Virus record (IMG/VR): IMGVR_UViG_3300049456_000013
Coordinates: 1-34,680 of that record
Strand: one strand, 5' to 3'
Source of the DNA: a virus
Length of the DNA: 34,680 nt
In this document: positions 10,762-34,478 of the stretch, piece after piece
How the letters are laid out: each line of letters starts with the position of its first letter
How positions within the stretch are numbered: the first letter of the stretch is position 1
Notes under the pieces: model-generated
Databases searched by the model: none
The model's input: the letters and a program-made list of their open reading frames with translations, nothing else
Told to the model about the DNA's origin: nothing
Program-made: the position numbers and the translations under genes

Positions 10762-10789
10762 GGCCTGACGGTGGCTGCGCTGGTATGCC

Positions 10790-10802
10790 ACAGCAACGTA
10801 CC
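10790..10802 (-). promoter_or_regulatory. Late element copy 1, before the endolysin
   Basis: GGTACGTTGCTGT on the minus strand, exact 13-bp match to the set of seven. It is followed by GGCAT and, after 28 nt, the endolysin ATG. On the other side lie two tiny plus-strand ORFs. Most likely a promoter core or regulator site for the lysis operon. Confidence 0.72.
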
Positions 10803-10833
10803 CCTAGCTTGCTCGCAGCGAGGTTGTGCGGTA

Positions 10834-10962
10834 TTGGGCTACATGGTCATTTGTTGGATTGTAGCAGGGGTCACGGTGGCGTGTGTCGCCGTCCCGCTGG
10901 CTTTGCTGGCGTTCTTGGCCTACGCCGCGACGTTAGCGGACGAGATGCTGGAGGGCGGTTGA
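10834..10962 (+). CDS. Tiny membrane protein on the opposite strand, 42 aa
   Basis: The start is TTG at 10834 with GAGG about 10 nt upstream, or ATG at 10843 (39 aa). The product (MVICWIVAGVTVACVAVPLA, then LLAFLAYAATLADEMLEGG) is one long hydrophobic helix and an acidic tail. No minus-strand frame explains this gap. Being opposite to all late genes is unusual, so confidence is limited. Confidence 0.45.
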   Translation: MGYMVICWIVAGVTVACVAVPLALLAFLAYAATLADEMLEGG

Positions 10963-11039
10963 TGCTTTACGTTGGCTTGGCGTTGATCGTCGTTTTCGTC
11001 ATCGCGGTGCTGTTCTTGCGCGCGATGATCTTCGGATGA
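10962..11039 (+). CDS. Tiny membrane protein on the opposite strand, 25 aa
   Basis: ATG at 10962 overlaps the previous stop (TGATG), with GGAGGG 6-7 nt upstream, a good ribosome binding site. The product (MLYVGLALIVVFVIAVLFLR, then AMIFG) is a single hydrophobic helix. Its stop abuts the end of the convergent tail-fibre gene. The coupled start is the main support. Confidence 0.45.
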   Translation: MLYVGLALIVVFVIAVLFLRAMIFG

Positions 11040-11981
11040 CTAGCGTGTCCGCCATGCGTGCAGCACGCCATAAATCGTGGACGTGGACACGCTGAACGCC
11101 ACGTTCACCGGACAGAATATGGTCGTCGCCGATGCAAGACTGACTCTGGTTGGCATCGTAGCCAACGCCTGATTGCTGCCCGCGGAAGCATTGAAGTTCT
11201 GGAATCCATTTGACCCAGCGCCAACACCGTTGGTCCCAATAACACCTCGCGCCGGCAATGTGGCAGACGTTCCGTTGATGGCGACTTCCAGCGTTGTCAG
11301 AACAGTGGTGCCACCGTTCAGTGTGATGACAGTGCAGGATACCGCCCAATCCCCCGCCGGAAGGCTGGTAAGCTGCGCTAAATTGGCCGTCACGCCATTG
11401 GATACCGAGATGGCAGAACCGACCGGAACGATCGTTTCTCGATATTCCCCGACGTTTCCGGCAGTCGCGTTGTCATTGGTCGCGGTGCCGGGAAGCTGGC
11501 CGGCGGCAGGAAACCCGGAAATATCCGAAGTCGCAAGCTGGGCAACAGTAAAAGCACCTCCCGAACTCGTTTGCTTGACGACCTGAGATGCGCCGCCGGT
11601 CGCAGAGAAGTTAGTCGTCCCGGCAGGGAAGGTGATGACGCTGGCCGCTGCAATCGCAGGCGCGTTTAATGTGAGCGCTCCCGAGGTCGCTCCAGCTAAC
11701 GCGAGATCATTCGGATTGTGAAGCTGTATCGCGCTCCACGTATTGGCAGTATTCAACAATGGGACGAATGCGCCGGATGTCCCGATGCTGTTAAATGCCG
11801 CCGTTCCCAGCGCGCCAGCGCCGCAGATTGGAGATGCGGCCGCGCCGTTCCCGACAACGGGAACATTGAGCAGGCATTGCGCCACCGTGTTGCTGATGTT
11901 CGGCTTGGTCGTGACCGGCTGCGCCAATGCGGCCGATGCGATGAAGCAACCGACGAATGCGAGTAGTGCGAGCTTTTTCAT
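11040..11981 (-). CDS. Tail-fibre-like protein with signal peptide
   Basis: ATG at 11981 gives 313 residues starting MKKLALLAFVGCFIASAALA, a clear signal peptide with cleavage near ALAQ. The body is rich in Ala, Gly, Thr and Ser in strand-like stretches. The C-terminal ~140 residues begin at VGEYRETIVPVGSAISVSNG and contain LPAGDWAVSCTV and TIYGVLHAWR. That is the pattern of a beta-sandwich domain found at the end of many proteobacterial phage tail proteins. The gene follows the tailspike gene by a 2-nt gap after its stop. Export signals are unexpected in virion proteins (see findings). Confidence 0.78.
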   Translation of the reverse strand: MKKLALLAFVGCFIASAALAQPVTTKPNISNTVAQCLLNVPVVGNGAAASPICGAGALGTAAFNSIGTSGAFVPLLNTANTWSAIQLHNPNDLALAGATSGALTLNAPAIAAASVITFPAGTTNFSATGGASQVVKQTSSGGAFTVAQLATSDISGFPAAGQLPGTATNDNATAGNVGEYRETIVPVGSAISVSNGVTANLAQLTSLPAGDWAVSCTVITLNGGTTVLTTLEVAINGTSATLPARGVIGTNGVGAGSNGFQNFNASAGSNQALATMPTRVSLASATTIFCPVNVAFSVSTSTIYGVLHAWRTR

Positions 11982-11983
11982 CT

Positions 11984-13642
11984 TCAACATCCTAAAGCGT
12001 TCAACGCGGCGGTGCCGGAGATGTGGGTCGTGCAGCCGTTCCATGAATTTGTAATGCAAGACAGCGTGGTGGTTGCGTTCGATGTGCAAGCATAGTTGGC
12101 CGGAACTCCGAACCGATTGCCCTGCATTATTGGATTCGAATTGTTTGCACCAATCCTGACCAAGGTGGGATTTCCGATGCTGGCATTTGCCTGGACCTGA
12201 TTATTTTGGATGACTGCGTTATCGATCGTGCAACCTCCGGCTACAAGATCGACGATAGCATTGTTAGTCTCGGTGCTGGTGACCTGTTGTTCAAACTCGT
12301 TGTTAGTGATTCGGGGAGAGACTGCACAACCAAGGACTAAGCCTCCGCCGGTGCCGCTGGCATTGTTGCCATCTATGATAAGATTCCCAGCGCCTGCGAT
12401 TTGGTCCCCAGAGATGGCAGCGTTGACACCGCTCATAAGGTTATCTCGAATGCGGATCGTGTCGCCGATGCTATCAAAGCGGACGCCGCCAACAACGACG
12501 CTTTCCATCAGGGTGAAATTGAACGTGCCGCCATTGGTGTTCGCAGGCAGATTGTGCAGATGCAGCGCATACGCACCAGTCACGGTGGACTGGAGAAAGA
12601 GATGATTAAGCACGATATCCGCCATCTCGGTGTCGGCAGCGGAAGTCGAATCGAAGACAATAGCATCACGTCCAGGCGTGCCGCCGTTGGGAAGAATTCC
12701 ACAATTAGTAATCGAATAGCCGCGCGTGACGGTATGGGGCGCTGGCTGGATCAGCAGGACATCGCGTGTGTTCGGTACAGTGCTATCGACAAGGAAGCCG
12801 GATGTGTACATGCCGGTGCAGATGAGATTGATGGGCATAGTCCGCGTCAGAATGGCTGATCCTGAACCAATGACCTTGCAGAGGGCTGGAATGAGAAGCG
12901 ACCCCCCGGCGGGAACAGTCGACAGCGCAAGATTAATGGCTGTGGTGTCGTCGGTCGTGCTGTCGCACTTTGCACCGTATGCCGCATCGGTAACGCTTGG
13001 AATGCCGGTGGCAATCGCAATGTTTTGCCCGGCTTGAGTAAGGCTAATTCCCGCACCGGATGAAAGCGTGACGGCACCTGACAGGGGCGATCCCGCCTTG
13101 CCTATCGATCCGACGCCAGCGAGCGTCGATGATGTCGACCATTTTGCTTCGACGACTTGGGTATTGAGGGGGATCGCGGCGGTGAAAGTCACCAACGATC
13201 CAGACAGCGACCATGTATTTATATTCTGCCAGACGCCATCAAATAAGATGATCAGGACGTCAGGCGAGGCCGGCGCCGATGAAAGCGTGAGGGAGGTAGT
13301 GGTGCCCGCCGTGAAGTTGGTGACAGCTAGGAAGTCCTGCGTGTGCGGCGTATTAGCCGTGATGCAAACCGCGCCATTGTCGACCAGATTGCCGGAGGCA
13401 TCGATCTTGACGCAATCGCCCGGCGTCAAGGAGCCGGTGGTTGTGGCGAACGTGGTGCCATTGCCAGATCTCGGAAAGGTGCTCTGGAAGGTCGCAAACG
13501 GGATGGCCTGCGATGGGCCTGGCTGCCCGACGATCCCGATGCGCCCTATGACGGTGTGATCGGGGACCGTGGGGAATTGCTGAGCGCAGGCAGGAACCGC
13601 GAACAGGGCGAGGATGGCCGCGAGGGCTGATTTGATGCGCAT
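11984..13642 (-). CDS. Tailspike-like protein with beta-helix and signal peptide
   Basis: The 552 residues start with a signal peptide (MRIKSALAAILALFAVPACA, cleavage near CAQ). Next comes a segment typical of alphaproteobacterial phage tail fibres (HTVIGRIGIVGQPGPSQAIP). A pectate-lyase-type start follows (YGAKCDSTTDDTTAINLALS), then repeats of the IRIRDNLMSG and PRITNNEFEQ kind that build a right-handed beta-helix. The likely role is binding or cutting surface polysaccharide at the tail. It lies 28 nt after late element copy 2, without a good Shine-Dalgarno sequence. Confidence 0.85.
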   Translation of the reverse strand: MRIKSALAAILALFAVPACAQQFPTVPDHTVIGRIGIVGQPGPSQAIPFATFQSTFPRSGNGTTFATTTGSLTPGDCVKIDASGNLVDNGAVCITANTPHTQDFLAVTNFTAGTTTSLTLSSAPASPDVLIILFDGVWQNINTWSLSGSLVTFTAAIPLNTQVVEAKWSTSSTLAGVGSIGKAGSPLSGAVTLSSGAGISLTQAGQNIAIATGIPSVTDAAYGAKCDSTTDDTTAINLALSTVPAGGSLLIPALCKVIGSGSAILTRTMPINLICTGMYTSGFLVDSTVPNTRDVLLIQPAPHTVTRGYSITNCGILPNGGTPGRDAIVFDSTSAADTEMADIVLNHLFLQSTVTGAYALHLHNLPANTNGGTFNFTLMESVVVGGVRFDSIGDTIRIRDNLMSGVNAAISGDQIAGAGNLIIDGNNASGTGGGLVLGCAVSPRITNNEFEQQVTSTETNNAIVDLVAGGCTIDNAVIQNNQVQANASIGNPTLVRIGANNSNPIMQGNRFGVPANYACTSNATTTLSCITNSWNGCTTHISGTAALNALGC

Positions 13643-13670
13643 GTCGGAGGGTGGCTAGATGGAACTCCCT

Positions 13671-13683
13671 ACAGCAACGTACC
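13671..13683 (-). promoter_or_regulatory. Late element copy 2, before the tailspike
   Basis: GGTACGTTGCTGT on the minus strand, exact match, followed by AGGGAG. The gap to the tailspike ATG is 28 nt. It forms a same-direction pair with copy 3, about 400 bp away. Confidence 0.75.
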
Positions 13684-13711
13684 TCAAGACATAGCTCCGG
13701 CTCCGTACCCT

Positions 13712-13731
13712 CCCCTCCCGATAGGGAGGGG
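13712..13731. repeat. Perfect 8-bp inverted repeat, 4-nt loop
   Basis: CCCCTCCC, loop GATA, GGGAGGGG. A strong hairpin in the noncoding gap between the tailspike and ejection-protein genes. Neither strand has a T run after it, so a classic intrinsic terminator is not supported. Hairpins of this composition are common between genes in GC-rich alphaproteobacteria. Confidence 0.7.
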
Positions 13732-14017
13732 CCACGGTCTCAGGGAATACTTTATCCGCGTATAGCTGCTCTGCCTGTTAACGGTGGCCGGCCGCCTCCC
13801 CGCCCAAGCCGGGCCAGCAAATCGAGGGGGTCGATCGAGCAGTTTTCCCTCAGCGCGCATTACGCATTCGGGCCGTCGGAGTCCCTTTCGGGCGAGTTCC
13901 GGCGCGGACGATGGTTTCCTGAGATAGCGCTCGGCTGGAAGGTTGCGACATCCATGCAAATGCATTAGATATGCGTCACTACCCGATTGGGGCTTTAGCT
14001 CTCAGGTCGCCCTAATC

Positions 14018-14049
14018 TGAGCCGGCACGTTATCAGCGTGGCCGGCTCA
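14018..14049. terminator. Strong hairpin after the ejection-protein gene
   Basis: TGAGCCGG...CCGGCTCA with a further CACG/CGTG pair inside gives a 12-bp stem with one bulged base and a 7-nt loop. It lies about 50 nt beyond the stop of the 1155-aa gene and after late element copy 3. It could end the structural transcript or shape RNA made from copy 3. No T run follows on either strand, so the terminator call is tentative. The rest of 13,732-14,017 holds nothing I can support. Confidence 0.5.
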
Positions 14050-14086
14050 CCAATTTCTGGGGTCAGATTTGAGCGGCCGGCGCCCA

Positions 14087-14099
14087 ACAGCAACGTACC
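14087..14099 (-). promoter_or_regulatory. Late element copy 3, directly after a stop codon
   Basis: GGTACGTTGCTGT starts at the base after the TGA of the 1155-aa gene. No gene starts at the usual distance; the next credible start is the tailspike at 13642, which has its own copy. This may be a duplicated or non-productive site. Confidence 0.68.
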
Positions 14100-17000
14100 T
14101 CAGCCGCGAATGCCCATAGTGCCGGATTCAGAAGGGCCAACCGTCAAACTCGGATCCTTCAGCTTGGTCGGCTTCTCGCCGCGGATCTTGGCCACGCGAT
14201 CCTCGACGCCCTGCTGGATGATCTGGGGATACTGCATCTGGATTGCGGCGCCGGCTGATTTACGGGTCGCATCGATGGTGGCCTTGAACATCTGCTGCCG
14301 GACGAACGGCGGCATTTCGTGCCAGCCTGGTTGCTCGACGAAATGGGTCAAGGCTTCCCGGGTGAACGCGCCGGCCGTGGACTGGTAGGCATCATAGATT
14401 TTTGGCGGCAGCTTCACGCCAGCGATTCGGTTCTGCGGCGGCGCCGGGTGCAGGTCGAGGGTCTGCATTTCCTGCGCGATCGGATCGACCACGGCGTTGC
14501 GGTGCTGGATGATGGCGGACAGGCCTGGCGCGTTCGGGACGTCACCGCCATAGCCGGCATTGGCCACCGGCAGGCCGAGCCAGTCCCGTTTCAGGTCGAG
14601 GCCCTGACGCTGAGTCGGGATGTAATAGCGCAGCCCGTCGACGACGCTCTTGGTCTCCCGCATATACGGATCCATGGCGCTGGCGACTTGGCGCTGCATC
14701 GACGAATACGGCAGCAGCGAGCCGGCGAAGTTAGCGACGAACTTCGCGCCCTTTCGGTCTGGCTCGTTGATGGCATCCATCAGGCCGGCGAGCCCCTGCA
14801 TGCCGACTTCATCCTCCATCAGCCGGCCGGTCGAATGCACGGTCATGCCGATGGCCTTGGTCAGTTCTTCCCAGTCAGGCTTAACGTGCGGGATCACCTC
14901 GGCCAGGTTCGAATACAGGCCCAGCATGGTTCCGAGCGAGCCGAACCGATTGAACGAATACCAGTAGTCCCCGATCCGGATCGAATAGGGCTGGTGTCCG
15001 GTCGCGGTCCACTGCGCGCGCTCCTTTGGATCGGTCGGGCCGAACCCGGTCATGCGCTCATTCAGCACCTGATTTACCGCCCACGCGCCGACCGCAGAAC
15101 CGACCACCATGCGGGCGATCGCCATATCCTGCTTGGCCGCTCCGGCCTCGCCCGACAGCGCCGCCCGGGTCTCCTTATCTAGAAAGGCCGCCGGCGTACC
15201 CTCGATCGACCGTTTCAGGATGTTGAGCGGGATATGGGTGAACGGCATAACGAGCTGCCCGACCTTGGTCGAACTCACGAACGATGACAGCTTCTTGCCG
15301 GTCTCGCCGAGTTCGCTGATATAGGTAAGCCGGTAGCCTTCCTCGATCGCGTTGTTCATCATATCCGGCGTGGGACGGTCGGCCGCGGATGCGCGCCGGT
15401 TCCAGAACGCATCGTCTGATAGCTTCAGGCCATCAGCCGCAGCCGCCCGATAGGCCTGCGCCTCAATCGAGGCCCGGTAGCCCAGAGCATTGAAGAACGA
15501 ATGGATGGCGCTGGCACCGCGGCTGGGCGCGCCGATGACCGCCCCAAGGTTCCCAGGGATCGGCCGCTGCTGGAAGGCCAGGTTCTTGTTCTGCTTGGGA
15601 ATAATGCTCTGCGCCAGCTCGCCCGGTAGCGCAGTCTGCAGGCCGGTCTTGGCCGCCGCGACCCCGGCCTTGATGGCATCCGGCACGCCGGCGATGATGC
15701 CCCATGTGCGCGCCGCCGCCTCGCCGGCATAGACGCCCTCGACGTCGCCCATCAGGCCGCGCCGCACCGCGCCGACCACGCCCGCCACCGGTGTGACCAC
15801 GGCGCTCTCGTAGGCCGCAAACGCGCCATTGGCGACGATGTACTTGGCATGGGTGATAGGGCCCGAGATCAGGGCGTTGATCCAGTAGAACCGGAACTTG
15901 TCCCATGCCGACGGCTTGTTCATGTCGCTCAGGAAGCGCGCCGCGCCAGCGCCGTCCATGCCATCGATCGCATCGGCCAGCTTCTTCAGGCCCTCCGGCG
16001 TCTGGTCCTTGTCCTTCAGGAACTCGGTGAAGCCGCCTTCTTCCTTGGACTTCTGCAGGAATTCCTGAAACACGTTGCCGGTGCGGCCCCATTCGGCACG
16101 GTGCCCGACCACCTGCTCGACCCACGTATCGCGCCGCAGCATGGCTTCCTGCAGCTTCATCAGGCTTTCCGGCGAACCGTCGGTCTTCACCTCGCGCGCG
16201 GCGGCGCGAACGTTATCGGTCGCGGTAAGCATGGCCTGCATGGCATTGCGGACCTGATTGTCGTTCTGTAGCAGCCGGCCGATCCCTTCCGGATTGAGCC
16301 CTGCCTTGTCCACCCCGGCCGCGTCCGCGATTGCCTCGAACTGCTGCAACGGGATTGTCCCCTGGCGCGCGGCCTGAAACTCTCCGTTCTGGTCCGCCGC
16401 GTCCGTGATCAGTTGCTTGGCATCGGCTGGCGTATTGATCTTGCCGACGAACTCATCGAACCGCTCGCGCCACGGATTGGGCTTATCGCCCGGCAATTCC
16501 TGAGTGACCTTCTCACCCTTCGGTCCTTCTGCATTCGCCGACGTCACGCGCTCTGCAACCTCCTTCGGCGTGCCTTCGGTGATCGGTGGTTTCTCGGGAC
16601 CGATAACGCCGAGGTCAGAACCCGCTTTGGTCAATACCTCAACTGGATCTACGACCTGCACGTCGTTATAACTAGACGCCTCAAGCCCAAACTGCGGCTG
16701 CTCGGCTGAAAATCTCGCGCGTGCCGGTTCATTCCTTGTGGCATATTTCAACGCCTCTTCGCGGTTCAGAAACGTGCCATCGGGCTTGGCGTAGCCCATC
16801 GATGCTTCAATTTCAGGAGGCGTTGGCCCGTCAGAGTTGACTTCCTTTCGCGTCATCAGATCAGAATGCACTTCTCCGACAGCGCCCATCTTGATCGTTC
16901 CGTCCGGCATTTTGCGCGCGACAACGAGATGAGGCTGTTCAGTCGCAACAGCGTCCTTGCTGATCCCCAGAGCTTCAAGAGGTGCCGCGATCTCGGGCGC

Positions 17001-17567
17001 TGACAATGGAATAAGCGCGGCCCCGACAGGTCTATCCTTTGGCAGTCCCGACCGCATCTCGACCTTGCCGAGACTGCCCGGCGATCCCATGAAGGCCTCT
17101 GGGATCGCTGCGATCTCGCGACCAAACTGTCCTCCACCGAGGGCTTCCATCGTCGCAGCCTGTCCTCCCCGGAAAGCCCCGCTCAACCCGCGCGCAACTG
17201 CATCCAGCGCGGTCGCTGTATTGACGATCACGCCCTCATTGAATGCCTGAAATGGGTTCTCGTAATGCGCCTGTCCGGCCGGTGCGAAGATGCCTTTCTC
17301 GGAAAGCCATTGCGTGCTCTCCTTCGACAGTCCCAGCCGTTCCGGTCCCCATGCCTCGCCGAACCCCTCGCCGAATGCGCGCATGATCGATCCGGTGCTG
17401 GTCGAATTGATCATCGGCTTGGCGGCTTCCGACCAACCATTCGGGCCGGAGATCGGCGCCGCGGGACCAGCGGGCGCGCCAGCCTTGGGCACATCTTCCC
17501 AGCCATCACCAGCGGGCGCAGCCGGAGGTGCAGCGGCGGCGGGAACGTCGACCCAATCGTCCGCCAT
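14100..17567 (-). CDS. Large internal virion/ejection protein, 1155 aa
   Basis: The protein starts MADDWVDVPAAAAPPAAPAG, with a second W-E-D-V-P copy soon after (DGWEDVPKAG). It is long, largely helical and Ala-rich. A hydrophobic stretch near the middle (WINALISGPITHAKYIVANG, AVVTPVAGVVGAVRRG) could contact membranes. By place and size it corresponds to the largest T7-type internal core protein (gp16-like), which is ejected to form a channel across the envelope. I see no clear lytic transglycosylase motif. The start overlaps the stop of the 558-aa gene by one base (17567). Confidence 0.8.
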   Translation of the reverse strand: MADDWVDVPAAAAPPAAPAGDGWEDVPKAGAPAGPAAPISGPNGWSEAAKPMINSTSTGSIMRAFGEGFGEAWGPERLGLSKESTQWLSEKGIFAPAGQAHYENPFQAFNEGVIVNTATALDAVARGLSGAFRGGQAATMEALGGGQFGREIAAIPEAFMGSPGSLGKVEMRSGLPKDRPVGAALIPLSAPEIAAPLEALGISKDAVATEQPHLVVARKMPDGTIKMGAVGEVHSDLMTRKEVNSDGPTPPEIEASMGYAKPDGTFLNREEALKYATRNEPARARFSAEQPQFGLEASSYNDVQVVDPVEVLTKAGSDLGVIGPEKPPITEGTPKEVAERVTSANAEGPKGEKVTQELPGDKPNPWRERFDEFVGKINTPADAKQLITDAADQNGEFQAARQGTIPLQQFEAIADAAGVDKAGLNPEGIGRLLQNDNQVRNAMQAMLTATDNVRAAAREVKTDGSPESLMKLQEAMLRRDTWVEQVVGHRAEWGRTGNVFQEFLQKSKEEGGFTEFLKDKDQTPEGLKKLADAIDGMDGAGAARFLSDMNKPSAWDKFRFYWINALISGPITHAKYIVANGAFAAYESAVVTPVAGVVGAVRRGLMGDVEGVYAGEAAARTWGIIAGVPDAIKAGVAAAKTGLQTALPGELAQSIIPKQNKNLAFQQRPIPGNLGAVIGAPSRGASAIHSFFNALGYRASIEAQAYRAAAADGLKLSDDAFWNRRASAADRPTPDMMNNAIEEGYRLTYISELGETGKKLSSFVSSTKVGQLVMPFTHIPLNILKRSIEGTPAAFLDKETRAALSGEAGAAKQDMAIARMVVGSAVGAWAVNQVLNERMTGFGPTDPKERAQWTATGHQPYSIRIGDYWYSFNRFGSLGTMLGLYSNLAEVIPHVKPDWEELTKAIGMTVHSTGRLMEDEVGMQGLAGLMDAINEPDRKGAKFVANFAGSLLPYSSMQRQVASAMDPYMRETKSVVDGLRYYIPTQRQGLDLKRDWLGLPVANAGYGGDVPNAPGLSAIIQHRNAVVDPIAQEMQTLDLHPAPPQNRIAGVKLPPKIYDAYQSTAGAFTREALTHFVEQPGWHEMPPFVRQQMFKATIDATRKSAGAAIQMQYPQIIQQGVEDRVAKIRGEKPTKLKDPSLTVGPSESGTMGIRG

Positions 17568-19243: not shown

Positions 19244-19251
19244 CTGCGTTC

Positions 19252-23512: not shown

Positions 23513-23514
23513 GG

Positions 23515-24798
23515 TCAGCGCCGCACGGTTATTAGATCGTCGTCCGGCTCGTCCGCATATCCAGCCTCGACGCCATCCAGCGTCAGCGCCATGCCCTCGA
23601 ACTTGGCGTAGGCCTTGGCGACGATCTCAAACTGGCCCTTGTCCTGAGTCACGGTATCGCAGATCGCGACCGCAAGCCGCAGCGCCAGGCCCTCGCAGAA
23701 CGTCACCTTCATCAGCGAGACGTCGGTGATATTGACCACGAAGCGCAGCAGGATCGGTCCGGTATCGCTAGAGACGATGTATTTTCCGGAGATGATCCAG
23801 TCGTCATAGCAGAATCCGGTCGGCCCGCCCAACCAGGGAACGCCGCTTTTCTGGTTCTGCGGCGCGCGGCGCAGAAAGCCGGCCGGCAGCAGGAATAGTC
23901 TATTCGCCGTGTTCTGAGACGATGGGCCGGTGGCGGCGGGATATAGCACATTCAGCTTGGTCAGCCCGACGCCGAACGGGAATTCCTTGCCGCCGATCTG
24001 CAGCCAGTTCAGCGAGCCCGAGCCGCCGACAAAGGTCCGAGTCCACGGAACGAGAACGCCGAGATTGGTCCAGTTCGCGCCGGTGTCTAGCGTCGGATCG
24101 TGGCCGATGTTGCCGGATCCGACCGACTGATAGATCACGCCATCGGAGCCGGCGACCTTGTTGGTGATGGCATAGGTCGTGCCGACAGCCCACGGCAGCG
24201 GCGCCAGATCCGGTTCGTTGTTCAGATTGAGATCGATCAGCGACATGTAGGCGACGCTGAGAAACGTCACGACCTGGTTCTTGAAATAGGTCACCGTCGC
24301 GTCATAGGCCGTCGCTGTTCCCGGCACGTCCTTGTTGCCGTCGACGCGCGACTGGTAGACGCGGTTGGTGCCGTCGCCCGGCGTGGTGTAGACGAGTTCG
24401 CCGTTGAAATAGGCGATGCCGGAATTGTATAGCGAGACCGAGAGCGGCCCAAAATAGGGCTCCCAGAAATTTGTCAGAAGCGGATCGTTGTTGAGATTGT
24501 TCGGGATGTTCGAAATCCACAAACTACCGGACTGATCGGCCACGATGGATCCGTAAAAGTACGTCGTCAGTTGCGACCACAGCGCCGGATTGAGCAGCAT
24601 CGTGTTGGTGTCGATGGCGCGGAGGCACTGGTCCTTGGTGGCAAAGGTCCATGTGCGCTGCGACAGCTCGGCCTTGCGGACCTGATCATAGCGTTTGGAG
24701 GCGGTGTTCTTGTTGCGAATACTGTCGCCGGAAAGGTTGGCGCCGCACCACGCCAGCGCGGCATCCCAGATATCCACCGGCGCGAGAAAATCACCCAT
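23515..24798 (-). CDS. Tail adaptor (tail tubular protein A-like), 427 aa
   Basis: The start (VDIWDAALAWCGANLSGDSI, SKRYDQVRKAELSQRTWTFA) matches podoviral tail tubular A/adaptor proteins that join portal and nozzle. The protein is about twice the length of T7 gp11. The extra length holds two module-like segments (AYDATVTYFKNQVVTFLSVA and WAVGTTYAITNKVAGSDGVI) similar to those in the nozzle protein. The gene starts 29 nt after late element copy 4 and lacks a clear Shine-Dalgarno sequence. Confidence 0.82.
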   Translation of the reverse strand: MGDFLAPVDIWDAALAWCGANLSGDSIRNKNTASKRYDQVRKAELSQRTWTFATKDQCLRAIDTNTMLLNPALWSQLTTYFYGSIVADQSGSLWISNIPNNLNNDPLLTNFWEPYFGPLSVSLYNSGIAYFNGELVYTTPGDGTNRVYQSRVDGNKDVPGTATAYDATVTYFKNQVVTFLSVAYMSLIDLNLNNEPDLAPLPWAVGTTYAITNKVAGSDGVIYQSVGSGNIGHDPTLDTGANWTNLGVLVPWTRTFVGGSGSLNWLQIGGKEFPFGVGLTKLNVLYPAATGPSSQNTANRLFLLPAGFLRRAPQNQKSGVPWLGGPTGFCYDDWIISGKYIVSSDTGPILLRFVVNITDVSLMKVTFCEGLALRLAVAICDTVTQDKGQFEIVAKAYAKFEGMALTLDGVEAGYADEPDDDLITVRR

Positions 24799-24827
24799 GC
24801 CGCGACGATGCGGGCGGGTGTGGCCTT

Positions 24828-24840
24828 ACAGCAACGTACC
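24828..24840 (-). promoter_or_regulatory. Late element copy 4, before the tail adaptor
   Basis: GGTACGTTGCTGT on the minus strand, exact match, 2 nt after the stop codon of the 94-aa gene and followed by AAGG. The gap to the adaptor ATG is 29 nt. Confidence 0.75.
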
Positions 24841-24842
24841 CT

Positions 24843-25336: not shown

Positions 25337-25339
25337 GGG

Positions 25340-25906: not shown

Positions 25907-25918
25907 ATTCTATTCTCC

Positions 25919-26152: not shown

Positions 26153-26162
26153 GTCACCCTCC

Positions 26163-27083: not shown

Positions 27084-27170
27084 GGCTATCCCGCTATTGG
27101 TCAAGGGTGAACGTCAGCGGTCTTGCCCATGCGAGAAGTCGCCGGGGACCATCAATCCATTCAGCCTTGT

Positions 27171-27230
27171 CCTTGCGGGGGCCGTACTCTTTATATGTGT
27201 GCCCTCGGCTTGTCCCTTGCGGGGGCCGTA
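27171..27230 (+). repeat. Two 16-bp direct repeats in the capsid leader
   Basis: CCTTGCGGGGGCCGTA occurs at 27171-27186 and again at 27215-27230, each preceded by CTTGT or CTTGTC. On the minus strand this falls in the leader between late element copy 5 and the capsid start. A nearby GGGGA/TCCCC inverted repeat lies at about 27,244-27,258. No reading frame explains the segment. Confidence 0.75.
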
Positions 27231-27271
27231 TGCGGGCTGTCGACGGGGAAGATGTCCCCGCCGGAACTCTT

Positions 27272-27284
27272 ACAGCAACGTACC
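27272..27284 (-). promoter_or_regulatory. Late element copy 5, upstream of the capsid
   Basis: GGTACGTTGCTGT on the minus strand, exact match, just after the stop of the 59-aa gene and followed by AAGAG. The capsid start lies 188 nt further on, so this copy has a long leader. Confidence 0.72.
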
Positions 27285-27287
27285 CGC

Positions 27288-27467: not shown

Positions 27468-27469
27468 GA

Positions 27470-27790
27470 CTACCTCCCTCGAAGATCGATCATCTGATCG
27501 CGCAGCGCGCCCTTGGCCTTGTTGAAGCGCCGAAGCGCCTCGGGATCGCGCATCTGCGCCGACTGCAGGCCGCCCTTCATCGGATGCGCGCAGACATTGA
27601 TACCGGAGATCACGCAGCCATCGGCGTTGCAGCCGTCGCAGCATTCGGTCGTGGTAATGCCGGCGAACTCGGAAGGCACCTTGACCGGCGCCTTTTCCTC
27701 GATGCGCGCGCGCGGGAATGCGCGCTTCTTCTTCGCCTTCTTCGCGGGCTTCGTCTTAGGGGCTTCGATCTCGTTCATGGCTTCGTCCAT
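27470..27790 (-). CDS. Small Cys-rich head-region protein, 106 aa
   Basis: ATG at 27790 shares its A with the stop of the scaffold gene (TGATG). A Lys-rich N-terminus (TKPAKKAKKKRAFPRARIEE) is followed by a Cys cluster (TTECCDGCNADGCVISG, then VCAHP) that may bind zinc, and a charged C-terminus. Location between scaffold and capsid suggests a role in head assembly, but no family is recognised. Confidence 0.65.
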   Translation of the reverse strand: MDEAMNEIEAPKTKPAKKAKKKRAFPRARIEEKAPVKVPSEFAGITTTECCDGCNADGCVISGINVCAHPMKGGLQSAQMRDPEALRRFNKAKGALRDQMIDLRGR

Positions 27791-28686
27791 CACGCTTCTC
27801 CGTCGATCATCATGTTGAGATTCTTCCATTCGGTCTTGGCCTGCTGATCGCCCGAGTTGAGGCGCGCGACCCAGGCCTTGTCGGCGAACAGTTCCTGCTT
27901 GCGCGACATCGCGCCTTCGCGCGTGGTGACCTTGCCGTTGCCCGCAGATTGACCGCTCTCGACAAAGACATCTTCCTTGCGGGCGTTGCCGATCTTGCGA
28001 AGAGCATCCATCACTGAGGAATAGCCCATCAGGTTTTCCAGCGCGGCCACGCCGGCCTCGTCGATGCCAAGCCGGTTGGCGCCTTCCTTGGCGGCGAGCA
28101 GATTGAAGCGATAGGTGTTGGAGTCCTTCGCGCCCCAGTTCTTCTCCAGCTTGCCGCGTTCCTCCGCGAGCTTGGCTGTGTTCAGCGTGCTCTCGGTGGT
28201 ATCAGCGGATTCCAGAAACTTGACCACGCTCTGGACGATCGCGCCGGCCTTATCCTTGGGCACGAAGGCCGCGGCAAGACCGGCCCGCATCGCATCGGCA
28301 AAGGCCGGTTCGAGGTCCGCTCCGGCGAACTTGATGCCGGAGAAATCGTACTCCTTGGCTTCCTTCGGAGCGCCTAGCCGCTGCCACATCGCAGCGATTT
28401 CCTCCGGCCTGGCATCGGCTTTGGGCATCCGGATGATCTGGTCCGGCGGGGCGCCGATATGTTTTTCAGCGGCGCGGTATTGCTCCGTCAGCTTGGTGGC
28501 GAGCGCCTTGGGGTCGGTGAGATCGTAGCCCTTGTTCTGCCAGAAGCCGAGGGTTTCGGCCTCGATGCCGGCGTGCCACGCGGGCGCAGGAGGTGCGGGT
28601 GGGGCCGGAGGCGGAGGTGCGGGCGGTGGGGGTTCACCCTCGAAATGAAAACGCGGGCGGCCGGTGTGATAGTTAAGGTAGTTCAT
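27790..28686 (-). CDS. Putative scaffolding protein, 298 aa
   Basis: ATG at 28686 follows AGGAG. The N-terminus has a Pro/Ala-rich stretch; then come charged helical segments (WHAGIEAETLGFWQNKGYDL, LAEERGKLEKNWGAKDSNTY) and a Lys-rich end (AKTEWKNLNMMIDGEA). Acidic, helical proteins in this place between portal and capsid are scaffolds in BPP-1-like phages. Confidence 0.78.
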   Translation of the reverse strand: MNYLNYHTGRPRFHFEGEPPPPAPPPPAPPAPPAPAWHAGIEAETLGFWQNKGYDLTDPKALATKLTEQYRAAEKHIGAPPDQIIRMPKADARPEEIAAMWQRLGAPKEAKEYDFSGIKFAGADLEPAFADAMRAGLAAAFVPKDKAGAIVQSVVKFLESADTTESTLNTAKLAEERGKLEKNWGAKDSNTYRFNLLAAKEGANRLGIDEAGVAALENLMGYSSVMDALRKIGNARKEDVFVESGQSAGNGKVTTREGAMSRKQELFADKAWVARLNSGDQQAKTEWKNLNMMIDGEA

Positions 28687-28954
28687 TGCCTTGTGCTCCT
28701 ATAGCGGGCGTGGTGTATTTCTCGAACAGGTCTTCCACCGTGAGGTCGAGATGATCACGGATGCGTAAAAAAACCTCCCTGCGGCCCTCCAATACATAGG
28801 TGCGGTCGCGGTCGCCGGGGATCACACAGGTCTCGCGCGCGCGACAGAACTGTCCGAGATCCAGCAATAGAGCCTTGCCGGCGTCGGTATTGAAGGCGAG
28901 CTGATAGGCCCTTTGGCGATCGGCGAGGATGGCCTTGAGTTCGTCCGGCGTCAC
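28673..28954 (-). CDS. Bbp19-like phage protein, 93 aa
   Basis: The sequence (MTPDELKAILADRQRAYQLA, AGKALLLDLGQFCRARETCV, YVLEGRREVFLRIRDHLDLT) matches the Bbp19-type family of Bordetella phage BPP-1, a small head-region protein of unknown exact role. It overlaps the portal stop by 4 nt and the scaffold start by 14 nt. This match supports the BPP-1-like classification of the module. Confidence 0.8.
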   Translation of the reverse strand: MTPDELKAILADRQRAYQLAFNTDAGKALLLDLGQFCRARETCVIPGDRDRTYVLEGRREVFLRIRDHLDLTVEDLFEKYTTPAIGAQGNELP

Positions 28955-30702
28955 ATCCCACCGCCGCCGGGTTGCTCGAGCGCACCGCTCTTTGCTGCGA
29001 CAGCCCTCGCCTTGATCATGGCGGCGGCGGCGGGCGCGGCGGCTACCTTCTGTTGCTCGGCCTGCTGCTTGGCGCGGTTCTGGCGCTTGGCGGCGATAGC
29101 CTGGCCGTCCGCCATCCAGGCTTCCGGCACATTATTGATGCGGGCGATCTCCGGGGTTGCCACATCGAAGTCGAAGGGATCCAGCAGGGAAGCGTCCTGC
29201 GTCACGTTGACGAGCTCGCGGACCTGCTCGATGGTTCGGAGGAATCCCGCGGCCTTGCCGGCGCTGGCCGCCAGCGACAGCGGCGAGGTGTCGGTGACCT
29301 CGTAATAGCCCCGAGCTTCCTTGAGCCGCGGCGGCATCGGATCCAGCATCCGCATGTCGGTCAGAAGATCCAGTTCGCGCTCGACCAGCCCGCCGACATA
29401 TTCGGTGTGCTGCCGACCGAGGGTTGGGGCGACCAGCATTCCCTTTTCATTCACAAGTTCAATGACTTGCGTGGCCGTCATGTTCGGGTTTTCGGAGAGC
29501 ACCTTGAACAGGCTGACGAGAAACACGTCATCGATGATGGTGCGTTCTTCCTGCATCATTTCCAGCGTGATCTTGATATCGCCGGTCGGGAGAACATGCA
29601 CCAGCGGCTTGCCGTCCGAGGTGACGCCGCCGACATTCTTGGCGCCCGGCCGCAGGCTCATGCCGACCAGACCGTCGTCGGCCATCAAGAGCACCGGATC
29701 GGCAGCGCGGTGGCCGCTCTTGAGGAAGATGGTCTTCTCGAGGTTCAGGGTTTTCAGGGACGGCAGCACCAGTTGCGCCGGCCCGCGGCCCTCGACCTCT
29801 CCCGGGGTCTGGTCATATCGCGATACCGCATAGGGGAAGGTGCGGTAGCCGCCCTCGGCCTGCATCAGGCAATTGCCCTCGACCGACACATAATAGGACG
29901 TGAACGGCAGCGAGCGCTGGTCGATCGCCTGCGGATCGTAATCATCGGTGCGCGGCCGGACGCAATGCAGGAAATTGTAGCCCCACTGCGAATCCTGCAT
30001 CAAAGGCGAGCGAAGCCCTTCCGGCAGGTTCTCGAGGCCCCATTTCTGCACGGCCTGGTACGGCGTCAGCCGGAACCAGCGGATCATGCGGTCGACCTTG
30101 CCCTGGTGGTTCTCGCCAAAGTAGGTCTCGCCGAGGGGAACGGACTTGTAGCGCAGGCCGCGGATGCCGCGATCCCAGCGGCTGTCGTACTTGTCCACGT
30201 ACATCGTGGCGTTGCCGAAGGCGCCGAGCGATTGCCAGTTGTTGTAGTTCTGCGCCGCGAAATTGGCGTTCGCCGCGTATCGCATCCGGAACAGGAGTTT
30301 TGTGGTGTTCTCGAACCACAGCCGGGTGGCGCGGTCCTTCATGACGTATTCGTCGCTCGAGAGCCCGTGCCAGAACATATTGCGCGGCGTCACCAGCGAA
30401 TCGGCGATGGCGCAGAAGCGGTGCAGGGCGAGCGCGCCTGTCGCATCGACCTGCTGCTGGGTCTTCTTGGCGCCGGGGTAATTGTAGTTGGTATAGAAGA
30501 AGGTATTGCGCGACGTCGGCAGGATCAGGTCGGCGACTTCCTCCCACTGACCGGCGAAGGTCGAGCGGCGGATCTGGTACTGGGCGAACTCGCGCTGGAT
30601 GCCTTTAACGATGGAAGTCTCGCGATCCGAGATACGGCGCGATGGGCGAATGGCCAGTTCTGTCGCATAAGGGACGACCTCAGTTGACGAGGTGCTTGGC
30701 AT
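28951..30702 (-). CDS. Portal protein (head-tail connector), 583 aa
   Basis: ATG at 30702 follows AAGGGA. The protein shows the podoviral head-tail connector pattern (QWEEVADLILPTSRNTFFYT, FCAIADSLVTPRNMFWHGLS, AFGNATMYVDKYDS, PYQAVQKWGLENLPEG, GRGPAQLVLPSLKTLNLEKT). It forms the dodecameric portal through which DNA is packaged and ejected. The C-terminal end is Ala/Gln/Lys-rich and helical, as usual. It overlaps the upstream 154-aa gene by 23 nt. Confidence 0.92.
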   Translation of the reverse strand: MPSTSSTEVVPYATELAIRPSRRISDRETSIVKGIQREFAQYQIRRSTFAGQWEEVADLILPTSRNTFFYTNYNYPGAKKTQQQVDATGALALHRFCAIADSLVTPRNMFWHGLSSDEYVMKDRATRLWFENTTKLLFRMRYAANANFAAQNYNNWQSLGAFGNATMYVDKYDSRWDRGIRGLRYKSVPLGETYFGENHQGKVDRMIRWFRLTPYQAVQKWGLENLPEGLRSPLMQDSQWGYNFLHCVRPRTDDYDPQAIDQRSLPFTSYYVSVEGNCLMQAEGGYRTFPYAVSRYDQTPGEVEGRGPAQLVLPSLKTLNLEKTIFLKSGHRAADPVLLMADDGLVGMSLRPGAKNVGGVTSDGKPLVHVLPTGDIKITLEMMQEERTIIDDVFLVSLFKVLSENPNMTATQVIELVNEKGMLVAPTLGRQHTEYVGGLVERELDLLTDMRMLDPMPPRLKEARGYYEVTDTSPLSLAASAGKAAGFLRTIEQVRELVNVTQDASLLDPFDFDVATPEIARINNVPEAWMADGQAIAAKRQNRAKQQAEQQKVAAAPAAAAMIKARAVAAKSGALEQPGGGGM

Positions 30703-31144
30703 CGGGATCCCTTGGGTCCATCGTCGGATCGAGGCGGCGGTCGGCGACCACCCATCGCTTCACGGCAGAGAACAGTTCGACGCGATCGGCATCATTCAGC
30801 TTGAGCTGATCGGCCAGGCGGCGGAAATCATTGCGCAGGCCGGCTTCGCTCCGGTATAGCACCATGTCCTTGACGATCCGGCCGCGCATTCTGACGTCGG
30901 CAACCACGGCGCCGGTTTTCGCGATCCGGGCCGCGGTCGTGAGAAACGGCTCGGTGATCGAGCGAAATCCGGGATAGAGCGTCGCCAGCAGCGCCGGCAT
31001 CGCGTCATCGAAATTATGCGCCAGCACGGAAAGTACGATGGCCTTCTGCCAGCTCCGCGCGCCCATCAGGCACCGCGCCTGCCATGTATCCTTGATGTCG
31101 AAGGTGATCTCGACGTCGGGATCAATAGCCAGCGCTTTTGCCAC
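30680..31144 (-). CDS. Hypothetical head-region protein, 154 aa
   Basis: The protein (MAKALAIDPDVEITFDIKDT...) has a helical core (SWQKAIVLSVLAHNFDDAMP, RRLADQLKLNDADRVELFSA) and a charged end. It starts inside the previous gene and ends inside the portal gene, so expression is likely coupled with both. Function unknown. Confidence 0.7.
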   Translation of the reverse strand: MAKALAIDPDVEITFDIKDTWQARCLMGARSWQKAIVLSVLAHNFDDAMPALLATLYPGFRSITEPFLTTAARIAKTGAVVADVRMRGRIVKDMVLYRSEAGLRNDFRRLADQLKLNDADRVELFSAVKRWVVADRRLDPTMDPRDPDAKHLVN

Positions 31145-31322
31145 TCATGCCTCCGAAGATCGAGCCGACAGCCAATGATCCGGCGGGCCCCAGCATTTGC
31201 TGCTGCTGCATCATCGCCATGCGCTTCTTGCGTTCCTCGTCGGTTTCCGCGCCGACCTGCTGGCCAAGGGCACCGCCGAGTCCAAGATCAGCCGCGGCGC
31301 CGGGAGGTGCATTAGGCGGCAT
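31122..31322 (-). CDS. Small hypothetical protein, 66 aa
   Basis: ATG at 31322 overlaps the previous gene by 11 nt. The product (MPPNAPPGAAADLGLGGALG, GAETDEERKKRMAMMQQQQM, LAVGSIFGGMSGKSAGY) has a charged helix followed by a Gly-rich hydrophobic end. Small proteins of this kind stand before portals in podoviruses. Function unknown. Confidence 0.66.
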   Translation of the reverse strand: MPPNAPPGAAADLGLGGALGQQVGAETDEERKKRMAMMQQQQMLGPAGSLAVGSIFGGMSGKSAGY

Positions 31323-31773
31323 GGACTTCTTTCGCGTCTTTGGCCTTCTGCGCGGCGAGCCGGTCGGCCTCGGCCTTGTCGTTCGCAGCCGCGGTGGCAA
31401 CCGCCTTGTCGGCGACGTCGGAGGCTTTCTTGGAAGCATCATGCTTCTGTTCGGCGTCCGCGAGCGCCGCGCTTGCATCGGCCGCGGCCTTCTCGGCCTT
31501 CACCAGATGCTCCAGCGAGGCGTAATGCGCCTTCTGATGCGGGTTCATGTTGGCGTAGGGCGATCCGACGCCGCGCTCGATCTCGCCATTGATGCGGGGC
31601 ACGTCCTTGCCGAAGTGCTTGTCTTCGAAGGCGCGGAGCTTGTCGCGCGCGGTGCCGGGAGTTGCGGATGTGCCGGGCTTGTTGAAGCCGACCGGTTCGG
31701 GCTTGGGCTCGGCCGGCGGGGTCGCATAGCTCGGGGTCGGGGTATTGAAGTGCGGGGCGGTATCGTCGGCCAT
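31312..31773 (-). CDS. Ala/Lys-rich helical protein, 153 aa
   Basis: ATG at 31773 follows GGAG at 7 nt and is preferred over an in-frame TTG at 31836. The N-terminus is Pro/Thr-rich and disordered. The C-terminal half is a long Ala-, Asp-, Lys-rich helical stretch (VKAEKAAADASAALADAEQK and on) that should form a coiled coil. First gene after late element copy 6. A head assembly role is possible; not assigned. Confidence 0.68.
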   Translation of the reverse strand: MADDTAPHFNTPTPSYATPPAEPKPEPVGFNKPGTSATPGTARDKLRAFEDKHFGKDVPRINGEIERGVGSPYANMNPHQKAHYASLEHLVKAEKAAADASAALADAEQKHDASKKASDVADKAVATAAANDKAEADRLAAQKAKDAKEVHAA

Positions 31774-31872
31774 GGGAAGCTCCAAAAAGGCGGCGGGTCT
31801 GACCGCGCGCCAAGTCAAGGGAGGAACGCCGGCCAAGAACCGGGCAATCGCAGCAGGCGCTTGAGTGTGGCG

Positions 31873-32064
31873 CTACAGCAACGTACCAGCGGCCTGGGCC
31901 GCCTCGATCGCCGCCGGGTCTGTGCCGTTGATGATGTGGGTCTGCAGCACCAGCTCGATCTCGCGCGCGCGGTCAGAGGGCACATAGCTGCCGGCGGGAT
32001 ATTTCTTGAACAATGCAGCCCGCATGCGGTCGAGTTCGGCTATGGTGTAGATGCGCGATGCCAT
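31873..32064 (-). CDS. Small hypothetical protein, 63 aa
   Basis: ATG at 32064 follows AGGAG. The product (MASRIYTIAELDRMRAALFK, REIELVLQTHIINGTDPAAI) is short, helical and ends in GTLL encoded by the late element. It directly follows the large terminase gene. Similar small proteins stand there in other podoviruses; function unknown. Confidence 0.7.
   Translation of the reverse strand: MASRIYTIAELDRMRAALFKKYPAGSYVPSDRAREIELVLQTHIINGTDPAAIEAAQAAGTLL
31875..31887 (-). promoter_or_regulatory. Late element copy 6, overlapping a gene end
   Basis: GGTACGTTGCTGT on the minus strand, exact match. It encodes the last residues G-T-L-L of the 63-aa gene, and its final T begins the TAG stop. Next gene starts at 31773 (101 nt) or at TTG 31836 (38 nt). 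Confidence 0.72.
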
Positions 32065-32075
32065 GGTCGCTCCTG

Positions 32076-33521
32076 TCAGAAGATGTCGAAGTCGGTGCCG
32101 TCCGCAATGCCGCCCGTGTCGCGGTTGGGCTTGGCACTGCCCAAACCGACGGCGCGGCCGAAGCGTTTAGCCATCACCGCAACCCGCAGCGCCGACATCA
32201 GGTCATCCTTGATCTTGACGATCTGGCCGTCCTTGCGGTGATAGAAGCGGCGTTCCTCGAGCAAATCGGAAAGATGGCTGGCATATTTCAGCCGGCCGCT
32301 TTTCTCGCGGTCGTCGATCTCCAGAATCCCCGCCTCGGTCGAAATGCCGCCATCCGCCCAGGTCGCGTGATCCGGTAGCATCAAGAGATCCTGCTTCTTG
32401 TACATCATGGCCAGCGGCTCGCCAGAGCCCTTCTCGCGGTCGCCGCCGTCCTTCGGCCAGGCCACGGGAACACCGGCCGCAACCTGCTTGATCGCCGCCG
32501 CGTGCTGGATCGGCAGGGCATCCGCCACCCGATAGGTATGATGGACATGGATCACATCGTTATCGCGGTCCCACAGGATCAGCACCGCCGCAAAGGGATG
32601 CCCGATGCCAAAATCTATCCCGGTCAGCTTCGACCAGTGCGCCGGCACATGCTCGATCATGGCCTCGGTGATGCTTTCTTCCGGCGACATGAAGATGCGT
32701 CCGCTTCCCAGCATCGGCACGCCGCGGGCGCGTGCCTCGCGCTCATGCGACAGATACCCCGACAGCATCCGCGCCTTCGTCTCCGGCGTGATATGCGTCG
32801 CCTCATCGATCGTGATCGTCGTCACGGCGCGGTCGTTATCCGGCTCGTCAAGGTAGCGGATCACCACCGACGAGCGCCCCTCCAGCGGAGTAAACGTCAG
32901 CCACACGATGCCGTCACGCTCGCCGATCCGGGTCAGGCCCTCGCTATAAATATCCAGCGGCGGTTCCTCGTCGAACCACATCCAGTCGAGCCCCTCGCCC
33001 TGGAACTTCTGCCGTCCCTGCTCATACGATTTGAACTGCGCGATCGAGATTCCGCCGGAGACGTGACGGACCTGGATCGTGTCATAGGCATCCGTGACGC
33101 CCCGCGCGAGCGACTTGTCCACAAGGTCCGCCTTCGCGATCATCCCGGAACCATAAGCACTCTCAACACCGTACTGCCCGCAGAGCTTGGTCTGGCAGAC
33201 GTTCCGCGTATCCAGCGACGTCACGCCGGCGATCCAGCCCTTGGTCGGGTAGTCGAACCGACGCCCCTTCCACCACGCCGGATACTTCCCCGTCAGATGG
33301 CACGCCGCCTCAAACGCCCCGGTTTCTGATTTTCCCAAACGATTGCCCGCCATTAGCAGCCGCTCACGATGCCGCGCCCCTTCAGCCAGGAAGGCCATCT
33401 GCTTCGCGTAAGGCTTGAACGACAGGATCCGGCCCTGATACGTCAGCCGCTCAACCTCGGCCTCCAGAGCCTCCGCAAGCGCTACCTTGGCGGCAATGGC
33501 TTCACTCGCCATTATTGTCAT
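32076..33521 (-). CDS. terL: Terminase large subunit
   Basis: The start is taken as ATG at 33521 (MTIMASEAIAAK, 481 aa); ATG at 33512 is also possible, and a start at 33569 in the same frame overlaps the upstream gene too far. The ATPase domain has Walker A MAGNRLGKSETG (about residues 57-68) and Walker B LDWMWFDEE (about 179-187). The nuclease domain opens with TGIDFGIGHPFAAV (about 301-314). It pumps phage DNA into the head and cuts concatemers. The 5' end overlaps the 62-aa gene by about 20 nt. Confidence 0.93.
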   Translation of the reverse strand: MTIMASEAIAAKVALAEALEAEVERLTYQGRILSFKPYAKQMAFLAEGARHRERLLMAGNRLGKSETGAFEAACHLTGKYPAWWKGRRFDYPTKGWIAGVTSLDTRNVCQTKLCGQYGVESAYGSGMIAKADLVDKSLARGVTDAYDTIQVRHVSGGISIAQFKSYEQGRQKFQGEGLDWMWFDEEPPLDIYSEGLTRIGERDGIVWLTFTPLEGRSSVVIRYLDEPDNDRAVTTITIDEATHITPETKARMLSGYLSHEREARARGVPMLGSGRIFMSPEESITEAMIEHVPAHWSKLTGIDFGIGHPFAAVLILWDRDNDVIHVHHTYRVADALPIQHAAAIKQVAAGVPVAWPKDGGDREKGSGEPLAMMYKKQDLLMLPDHATWADGGISTEAGILEIDDREKSGRLKYASHLSDLLEERRFYHRKDGQIVKIKDDLMSALRVAVMAKRFGRAVGLGSAKPNRDTGGIADGTDFDIF

Positions 33522-33690
33522 CCCGCACACAAATCTCGGCGCGGAACCCAATCGGATTGGAAAGGCCATCCTTCGGCCGCAACCGCGGCGTCACCGGGCC
33601 ATCGTCCGGAACACGGTAACGCGAGGTCACCCCATACTTCGGTTGCCGGATTGGCTTGCCGCTCGGGTGCCTGGCACGCTGCTCGGTCAT
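33502..33690 (-). CDS. Small hypothetical protein, 62 aa
   Basis: ATG at 33690 forms ATGA with the previous stop. The product (MTEQRARHPSGKPIRQPKYG...) is basic and likely disordered, ending EICVRDDNNGE, and its 3' end overlaps the large terminase start. Function unknown. Confidence 0.62.
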   Translation of the reverse strand: MTEQRARHPSGKPIRQPKYGVTSRYRVPDDGPVTPRLRPKDGLSNPIGFRAEICVRDDNNGE

Positions 33691-33887
33691 TGCGGTGCAT
33701 CAAATTCGACGTTGATGCCAAGCGCGCGCAGCATCCCGGTCGCGAGCTCCAAGCCCTGCTGCGGCGAAAGCTCGATGCGGCCGCGGCCGTCAATATCCAG
33801 CCACACCCCGCCATTCAGCGACCTGCCACCCGTCATCCGCCGCTCGCCCGGCAGCACAATCCCCTTAGTCAGTGCCATCGGTTTCAT
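33687..33887 (-). CDS. Small hypothetical protein, 66 aa
   Basis: ATG at 33887 forms ATGA with the small terminase stop. The product (MKPMALTKGIVLPGERRMTG, LSPQQGLELATGMLRALGIN) is mixed alpha/beta. It stands between the terminase subunit genes; function unknown. Confidence 0.66.
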   Translation of the reverse strand: MKPMALTKGIVLPGERRMTGGRSLNGGVWLDIDGRGRIELSPQQGLELATGMLRALGINVEFDAPQ

Positions 33888-34438
33888 TCCTTCACCTCCA
33901 CAAATTCCCCCTCCGTCACCGGAGCCTCCAAGGCCGCCAGCAGCATCACAGGGTCAAACCCCAGCGCCGCCAGCTTCTTCGCCGCCAGCCGGATCCGATC
34001 CTCCGACCCCCGATCCGTGGTATCCCGGAACTCCTGCTTCACGCTGATCTTCTGCTCGACCGCAAAATCATTCATCCCGGCCAGCCACACCGCCGCCTTG
34101 AACTGGTCCCGGTGATCATCGCGCCGCACAATCTTCTTGATCGTCGCAACGCCCAGCATCGACCCAGACCGAATCTCCCGGTCCGCACACTCCCGGATCG
34201 CCGCCAATACCTTCTCATCATGAAAACATCGGTGAGCAGATACCCTCAACGCCCCATGGCTGCGGTCCGAGTAGCCGGCCGCCTTCGCTATTTGCCAATC
34301 CTTCGCAAAAGGATACATCACCGCAGCCATCGCAAATCTACGTTGCGCTGCGGTAAGTGCAAGCATCGCCTTACCTAATCCGGAAACCTCCGGATCTGGA
34401 ACCGCCGATACACCCTCAGTAACTCCGGGAATGCCCAT
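33884..34438 (-). CDS. terS: Terminase small subunit
   Basis: The protein (184 residues) is predicted mostly helical. A DNA-binding HTH-like section (TAAQRRFAMAAVMYPFAKDW, then QIAKAAGYSDRSHGALRVSA) is followed by a helical central part (KVLAAIRECADREIRSGSML) and an acidic tail. Size and place before terL fit a small terminase, which recognises phage DNA for packaging. It begins 27 nt after late element copy 7, again without a clear Shine-Dalgarno sequence. Confidence 0.85.
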   Translation of the reverse strand: MGIPGVTEGVSAVPDPEVSGLGKAMLALTAAQRRFAMAAVMYPFAKDWQIAKAAGYSDRSHGALRVSAHRCFHDEKVLAAIRECADREIRSGSMLGVATIKKIVRRDDHRDQFKAAVWLAGMNDFAVEQKISVKQEFRDTTDRGSEDRIRLAAKKLAALGFDPVMLLAALEAPVTEGEFVEVKE

Positions 34439-34465
34439 GCTAACAAGTTACGCGGCAAAGATGCC

Positions 34466-34478
34466 ACAGCAACGTACT
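34466..34478 (-). promoter_or_regulatory. Late element copy 7, before terS
   Basis: GAGTACGTTGCTGT on the minus strand: the 12-bp core GTACGTTGCTGT is exact, with A in place of the first G of the pair. It is followed by GGCAT, as in copy 1, and the terS ATG after 27 nt. The remaining 34,481-34,603 holds no gene I can support. Confidence 0.7.

Follow-up and report, generated by a model that had tools for sequence, protein, structure and literature searches.

The stretch of DNA analyzed here (hereafter the window) is a 34,680-base IMG/VR virus record that breaks off shortly upstream of the gene for the terminase small subunit (phrog_51, 33884-34438). Its minus strand encodes terminase, portal (phrog_332), major head (phrog_3437), endonuclease VII-like and internal virion proteins as well as an endolysin, and an integrase gene is found on the plus strand; these genes mark the phage as temperate and podovirus-like. 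The first predicted late promoter lies around 200 bp from the window end, beyond which around 10 kb of the genome are missing. The contig end itself (about 34603-34680) consists of a run of around 25 C and then C/A-rich sequence of low complexity; this is probably an artefact of sequencing or assembly, so that the final ~80 bases are best treated as unreliable. A 571-aa open frame on the plus strand (28972-30687), antisense to the portal gene, is most likely a shadow ORF arising from high GC content. A host was sought by searching species genomes with the capsid protein: a first scan gave no match and a second retrieved only distant relatives (36-41%). The early regions of three related contigs, L151 (G012), L142 (G005) and L173 (G007), encode small helix-turn-helix (HTH) proteins, some of them resembling GcrA, a cell-cycle regulator of Alphaproteobacteria, which is a possible hint at the host class.

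The late genes of the window are punctuated by a short asymmetric element. A first-pass annotation had reported seven exact copies of the 12-mer GTACGTTGCTGT, all on the minus (late) strand and all at junctions of minus-strand late genes, and each of these statements was confirmed, with no copy on the plus strand (Table 1). We also searched the window for copies with one or two mismatches and found none. As had been claimed, six copies extend by a preceding G (an A takes its place at 34466), and the two bases following the core (GG, AG, TG, AA, AA, AG and GG) are never C at the first position and always a purine at the second. By chance, a given 12-mer would be expected around 0.004 times in 69 kb (both strands counted), in agreement with the earlier statement that the expectation is far below one. 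The suggestion that these following bases would suit transcription starts was not borne out, as transcription is predicted to begin around 40 bp beyond the first G of the core. Two copies reach into reading frames: that at 31875 overlaps the stop of a short ORF (31873-32064), and that at 10790 falls inside the longest stop-to-stop endolysin frame, yet upstream of the endolysin ATG. A -10 box was found at six of the seven copies, one of the six being weak, and four copies run straight into start codons, namely those of the terminase small subunit, the tail gene, the 552-aa late gene and the endolysin.

Table 1. Element copies, associated -10 hexamers and predicted starts in the window.
Feature	Position	Strand	Remarks
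-35-type element GTACGTTGCTGT, predicted late promoter 1 (terminase small subunit)	34466..34477	-	preceded by A
-10 hexamer TAACTT, predicted late promoter 1	34445..34450	-	
Predicted start of late promoter 1	34438		A of the terminase small subunit ATG
Palindrome TAACTTGTTA	34441..34450	none	over the -10 box of predicted late promoter 1
Element copy after terminase large subunit	31875..31886	-	no YANNNT box in the canonical register
Element copy upstream of major capsid gene	27272..27283	-	leadered mRNA expected
-10 hexamer CATCTT	27249..27254	-	for the copy at 27272
Element copy upstream of tail gene (23515-24798)	24828..24839	-	
-10 hexamer CATCGT	24805..24810	-	predicted start 24798, the A of the tail gene ATG; predicted leaderless
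Element copy directly after stop of internal virion protein gene (14100-17567)	14087..14098	-	
Weak -10-like hexamer AAATCT	14065..14070	-	nearest ATG-started ORF (13684-13965) ~100 nt downstream
Element copy upstream of 552-aa late gene (11984-13642)	13671..13682	-	
-10 hexamer CACCCT	13648..13653	-	ATG at 13642, 6 nt past its last T; predicted leaderless
Element copy upstream of endolysin gene (10279-10761 from its ATG)	10790..10801	-	
-10 hexamer CACCGT	10768..10773	-	predicted start 10761, the A of the endolysin ATG; predicted leaderless

Searches of IMG/VR with the capsid and portal proteins retrieved >100 related contigs, of which 23 long ones (37.5-46.8 kb) were fetched whole, giving 24 long contigs with the window. 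In many of the long relatives, word counts ranked GTGCGTTG-like words with the most frequent repeats, and motif discovery across relatives, a check that the first-pass annotation had asked for, showed that the element is conserved as GTRYGTTK. It is present in 21 of the 24 long contigs, the window included, with a strand bias to the late direction and a load of 3-10 copies per genome. The form GTRCGTTG, with the same bias, was found in 18 of the 24, again counting the window; among the remaining six, three carry internally uniform variants (ATACGTTGCC in G014, GTGTGTTG in G015 and GTACGTTTCTG in G016) and three (G018, G021 and G022) lack the element. Such repeats were also sought in BcepC6B, BUCT708, Mwe-JY08 and ct8d5349, and no junction-site element was detected; the sole strong repeat candidate, in ct8d5349, was rejected as a set of short tandem repeats clustered within 0.5 kb rather than junction sites.

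Alignment of 121 sites on the core revealed weak conservation 28-35 bp downstream and an excess of ATG codons 39-42 bp downstream (59 of 121 sites compared with ~5 expected). Expectation-maximisation with free spacing on these 121 sites yielded the box C-A-T-C-N-T, whose A (93%) and last T (96%), four bases apart, are the only near-invariant positions; the log-likelihood was 405, compared with 55-65, around a seventh, for shuffled controls. This YANNNT pattern is the sequence signature of a sigma70 -10 element. The box occurs at 121 of 140 sites in the 21 genomes, as against 17% of random positions, and when counted from TTGCTG as the -35 register the spacer in these genomes is 15-19 bp with a mode of 17, as for a host-type -10 box. 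A scan of the left arm for consensus sigma70 promoters gave promoter-like sites no more numerous than expected by chance. Many element sites overlap or adjoin the stop codon of the preceding gene, and no other downstream sequence is conserved.

The position of the start codons is striking in this regard. Counting only ORFs of at least 50 aa, 56 start codons lie exactly 7-8 nt past the last T of the box, which is the expected +1 position, and Shine-Dalgarno sequences of at least four contiguous bases are depleted ahead of such starts (4 of 67, compared with 15% at random positions). At about half of the sites the mRNAs are thus predicted to be leaderless, with 5' ends at the start codon or no more than 1-2 nt from it. 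A further feature, present in 12 of the 21 genomes, is a palindrome TAACN1-3GTTA on the -10 box or spacer of one late promoter, probably an additional operator serving a lysogeny repressor or autoregulation.

We then compared sequence identity between sites of the same genome with that obtained after shuffling of genome labels. Sites were more alike within genomes at positions -3 to -1 (z 9.5), in the core (z 11.6, a value partly built in as the variants had been searched for per genome) and at +8 to +11 (z 11.0). The -10 box was barely genome-specific (z 1.9), and the spacer and flanks were no more alike within a genome than between genomes (z 0-0.6). Unlike flanks beside a like element argue against recent duplication of whole promoters. 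As the -35-like element is genome-specific and the -10 box hardly so, the upstream half would be read by a genome-specific factor and the -10 box by a shared one, which would imply two readers, the host housekeeping RNA polymerase and a phage-specific activator. Possibly, the reader of the upstream element instead varies between hosts rather than being specific to the phage.

In search of this reader, profiles for all gene clusters were compared with all ORFs of the long contigs. One non-structural late-direction gene was found in all 17 long GTRCGTTG relatives and in G014-G016 (20/20) and is absent from all three contigs that lack the element, a pattern that rests on three negative genomes, two of them alike, and that is shared by two other families, one among the head genes and one an antisense ORF. 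This gene encodes an HTH protein of ~175 aa and closes the early rightward operon, where it follows replication-like genes and one for a RusA-type resolvase; the first late promoter comes shortly after it, and in several genomes its stop codon is overlapped or closely followed by the first element. In L206, the closest relative of the window by terminase small subunit (68%), a GTGCGTTG promoter follows the HTH gene (3511-4041) and shares the TAANTTGTTA palindrome of the window. The first-pass annotation had recognized no partner gene, and the reason is that the window ends ~200 bp ahead of the first late promoter, so that the HTH gene of this phage would lie in the missing ~10 kb.

Searches of Pfam and PHROGs assigned no family to the candidate activator. 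Residues 25-90 of its AlphaFold model form a confident CI/Xre-type HTH (pLDDT ~95), followed by a helical C-terminus. The best matches listed for this domain by VIA (Z up to 8.7, rmsd 1.9 over 71 residues) are mostly Xre-type HTH folds, the nearest being HipB, C-proteins and lambda CI, with CI bound to sigma region 4 at Z 8.2. Foldseek gave no match at E <= 0.001 with the model and many Xre-type HTH folds at high probability. The recognition helix is more variable than the mostly constant GTGCGTTG core, and relatives of the protein occur in the partial contig L119 and in Microcystis phage Mwe-JY08, yet no element was detected in either. The gene position resembles that of lambda Q; despite this, the many promoters argue for an activator of initiation. 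On the strength of these genomic and modelling results, the lambda-CI-like HTH protein is our best candidate for the reader of the element, and it is a previously uncharacterised DNA-binding protein.

Taken together, we consider it likely that each copy forms the -35-like half of a late promoter in which a host sigma70 -10 element is combined with a CI/Xre-type activator bound at the element. Host housekeeping sigma70 RNA polymerase would read the YANNNT box 16-18 bp downstream of TTGCTG, and the canonical -35 hexamer would be replaced by GTACGTTGCTGT, bound by a phage-encoded activator. This activator, a product of the last part of the early rightward operon, would most likely be the lambda-CI/Xre-type HTH protein that relatives encode just ahead of their first late promoter; docking on or near sigma region 4, it would switch on all late units together, and at around half of the sites the transcription start would fall at the start codon, yielding leaderless late mRNAs. 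Promoter activity, the use of host sigma70 and the role of the HTH protein as reader are what we infer from the comparisons described above. A broader proposal, which we hold only tentatively and judge somewhat less probable than its converse, is that members of this CI-like family, not described before, each take over -35 recognition for host sigma70 unaided, evolve together with their own 12-15 bp elements and switch late genes to leaderless mRNAs across a large group of uncultivated, temperate podovirus-like phages.

Among the hypotheses offered by the first-pass annotation, a site for a phage late activator is supported by the -35 position of the element, its genome-specific variation and a candidate gene with matching presence and absence. 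Position and spacing would also fit recognition of both boxes by a single alternative sigma factor, either a highly divergent phage protein or one of the host, with the element as its -35 box. Small HTH proteins matching sigma region 4 in some relatives would be in keeping with this reading; we rejected them, however, as unrelated proteins that are heterogeneous, below the cut-off and not common to all relatives. The Pfam profile for sigma70 region 2 (PF04542) matched none of the 24 contigs, while 11 of 14 control genomes were positive, and the -10 box is an ordinary YANNNT that is not genome-specific, whereas the upstream element is. We therefore regard an alternative sigma as unlikely. Less probable again is an asymmetric, stoperator-like repressor site that would keep late genes silent in the prophage and lie on late promoters by coincidence. 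An asymmetric element oriented with transcription at the gene junctions of an integrase-bearing phage is what such a site might look like, but the element keeps a fixed spacing of 16-18 bp to a -10 box, with a start codon at the expected +1; moreover, the early genes of the window contain no copies, and the palindrome at the terminase promoter is a better candidate for a repressor operator.

The fixed distance to gene starts could also reflect a signal acting in RNA, either associated with translation starts or an antitermination site, rather than a promoter. We give this very little weight, as the element lies ~40 nt upstream of start codons and outside the Shine-Dalgarno region, the A/T box at flexible spacing has no obvious explanation at the RNA level, and many sites overlap or adjoin preceding stop codons, with nothing else conserved downstream. 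The least credible of the readings is that the missing part of the genome encodes a single-subunit RNA polymerase with the element as its promoter, for which the several identical sites before late genes would speak. Promoters of such T7-type polymerases are contiguous, whereas the site described here is bipartite, with -35/-10 sigma70 anatomy and a spacer varying from 15 to 19 bp. No early ORF in complete relatives is large enough for such an enzyme: none exceeds 365 aa in the complete G019 (45.8 kb, with a 127-bp end repeat) and none exceeds 431 aa in the early region of G005. A search with the PF00940 profile, whose control was weak, also found nothing.

Of the systems described previously, T4 middle promoters and GafY, which acts through RpoD, appear to be functionally closest to the one proposed here, although it differs from that of T4. 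At T4 middle promoters, sigma is appropriated by AsiA/MotA, the MotA box replacing the -35 element while the sigma70 -10 is kept (PMC2988021). Both arrangements would thus place a phage element in lieu of the -35, retain the host -10 and serve many promoters with one element. However, the MotA box has its centre at -30 and lies 12 ± 1 bp away from the -10 (PMC2988021), whereas the element described here has a different sequence, lies at around -40 to -29 and is spaced by 16-18 bp, which does not agree with the MotA spacing. The candidate is also CI/Xre-like by its model, the genes are late and often predicted to be leaderless, and no AsiA-like partner was identified for it. GafY, a phage-derived protein of the Caulobacter gene transfer agent, is reported to contact RpoD domains 3-4 and to aid RNA polymerase at the degenerate -35 of phage-like structural genes, binding far upstream and requiring IHF (PMC11150451). 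The present element itself occupies the -35 position, with no such far-upstream, IHF-dependent layout. Mu C and other phage late activators show how one phage protein can serve several late promoters through host RNA polymerase (PMC4461284), as proposed here, although our system differs in its proposed binding site, an asymmetric element of 12-13 bp that takes the -35 position.

In being short, asymmetric, aligned with transcription and found at gene junctions, the element resembles the stoperators of cluster A mycobacteriophages, which are repressor sites across the genome (PMC9283540), and the start-associated sequences of cluster K, 13-bp repeats that occupy the ribosome-binding position and have been proposed to function in initiating translation (PMC3203893). 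Unlike stoperators, its copies in the window are confined to late-direction junctions, with a strong late bias in relatives, and unlike the cluster K repeats it is locked to a -10 box, with start codons 39-42 nt downstream. The element thus belongs to neither of these two classes.

A literature search, covering open-licence papers only, found no description of this promoter system. The analysis outlines a complete late-transcription circuit from sequence alone, comprising element, -10 box, predicted start and candidate activator, for a large group of uncultivated phages. The natural element variants and their matching proteins form a ready set for work on activators that replace -35 recognition by sigma region 4, and leaderless late mRNAs, as predicted here, would be relevant to the translation of phage structural genes in the host.

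Other repeats were noted in these genomes. The leader between the predicted promoter at 27272 and the capsid gene (about 27145-27220) contains two near-copies of TACGGCCCCCGCAAGG(G)ACAAG, and a similar word, CCCGCAAGGAC, occurs three times in the relative L048. Finally, GTAACCGTTACGCAA repeats lie 123 bp apart in L176 (G013; 31479/31602 when oriented) and L182 (G015; 3574/3697 when oriented), where they encode a repeated VTVTQPLRN peptide within a replication-like gene and may possibly represent origin iterons as in lambda O.
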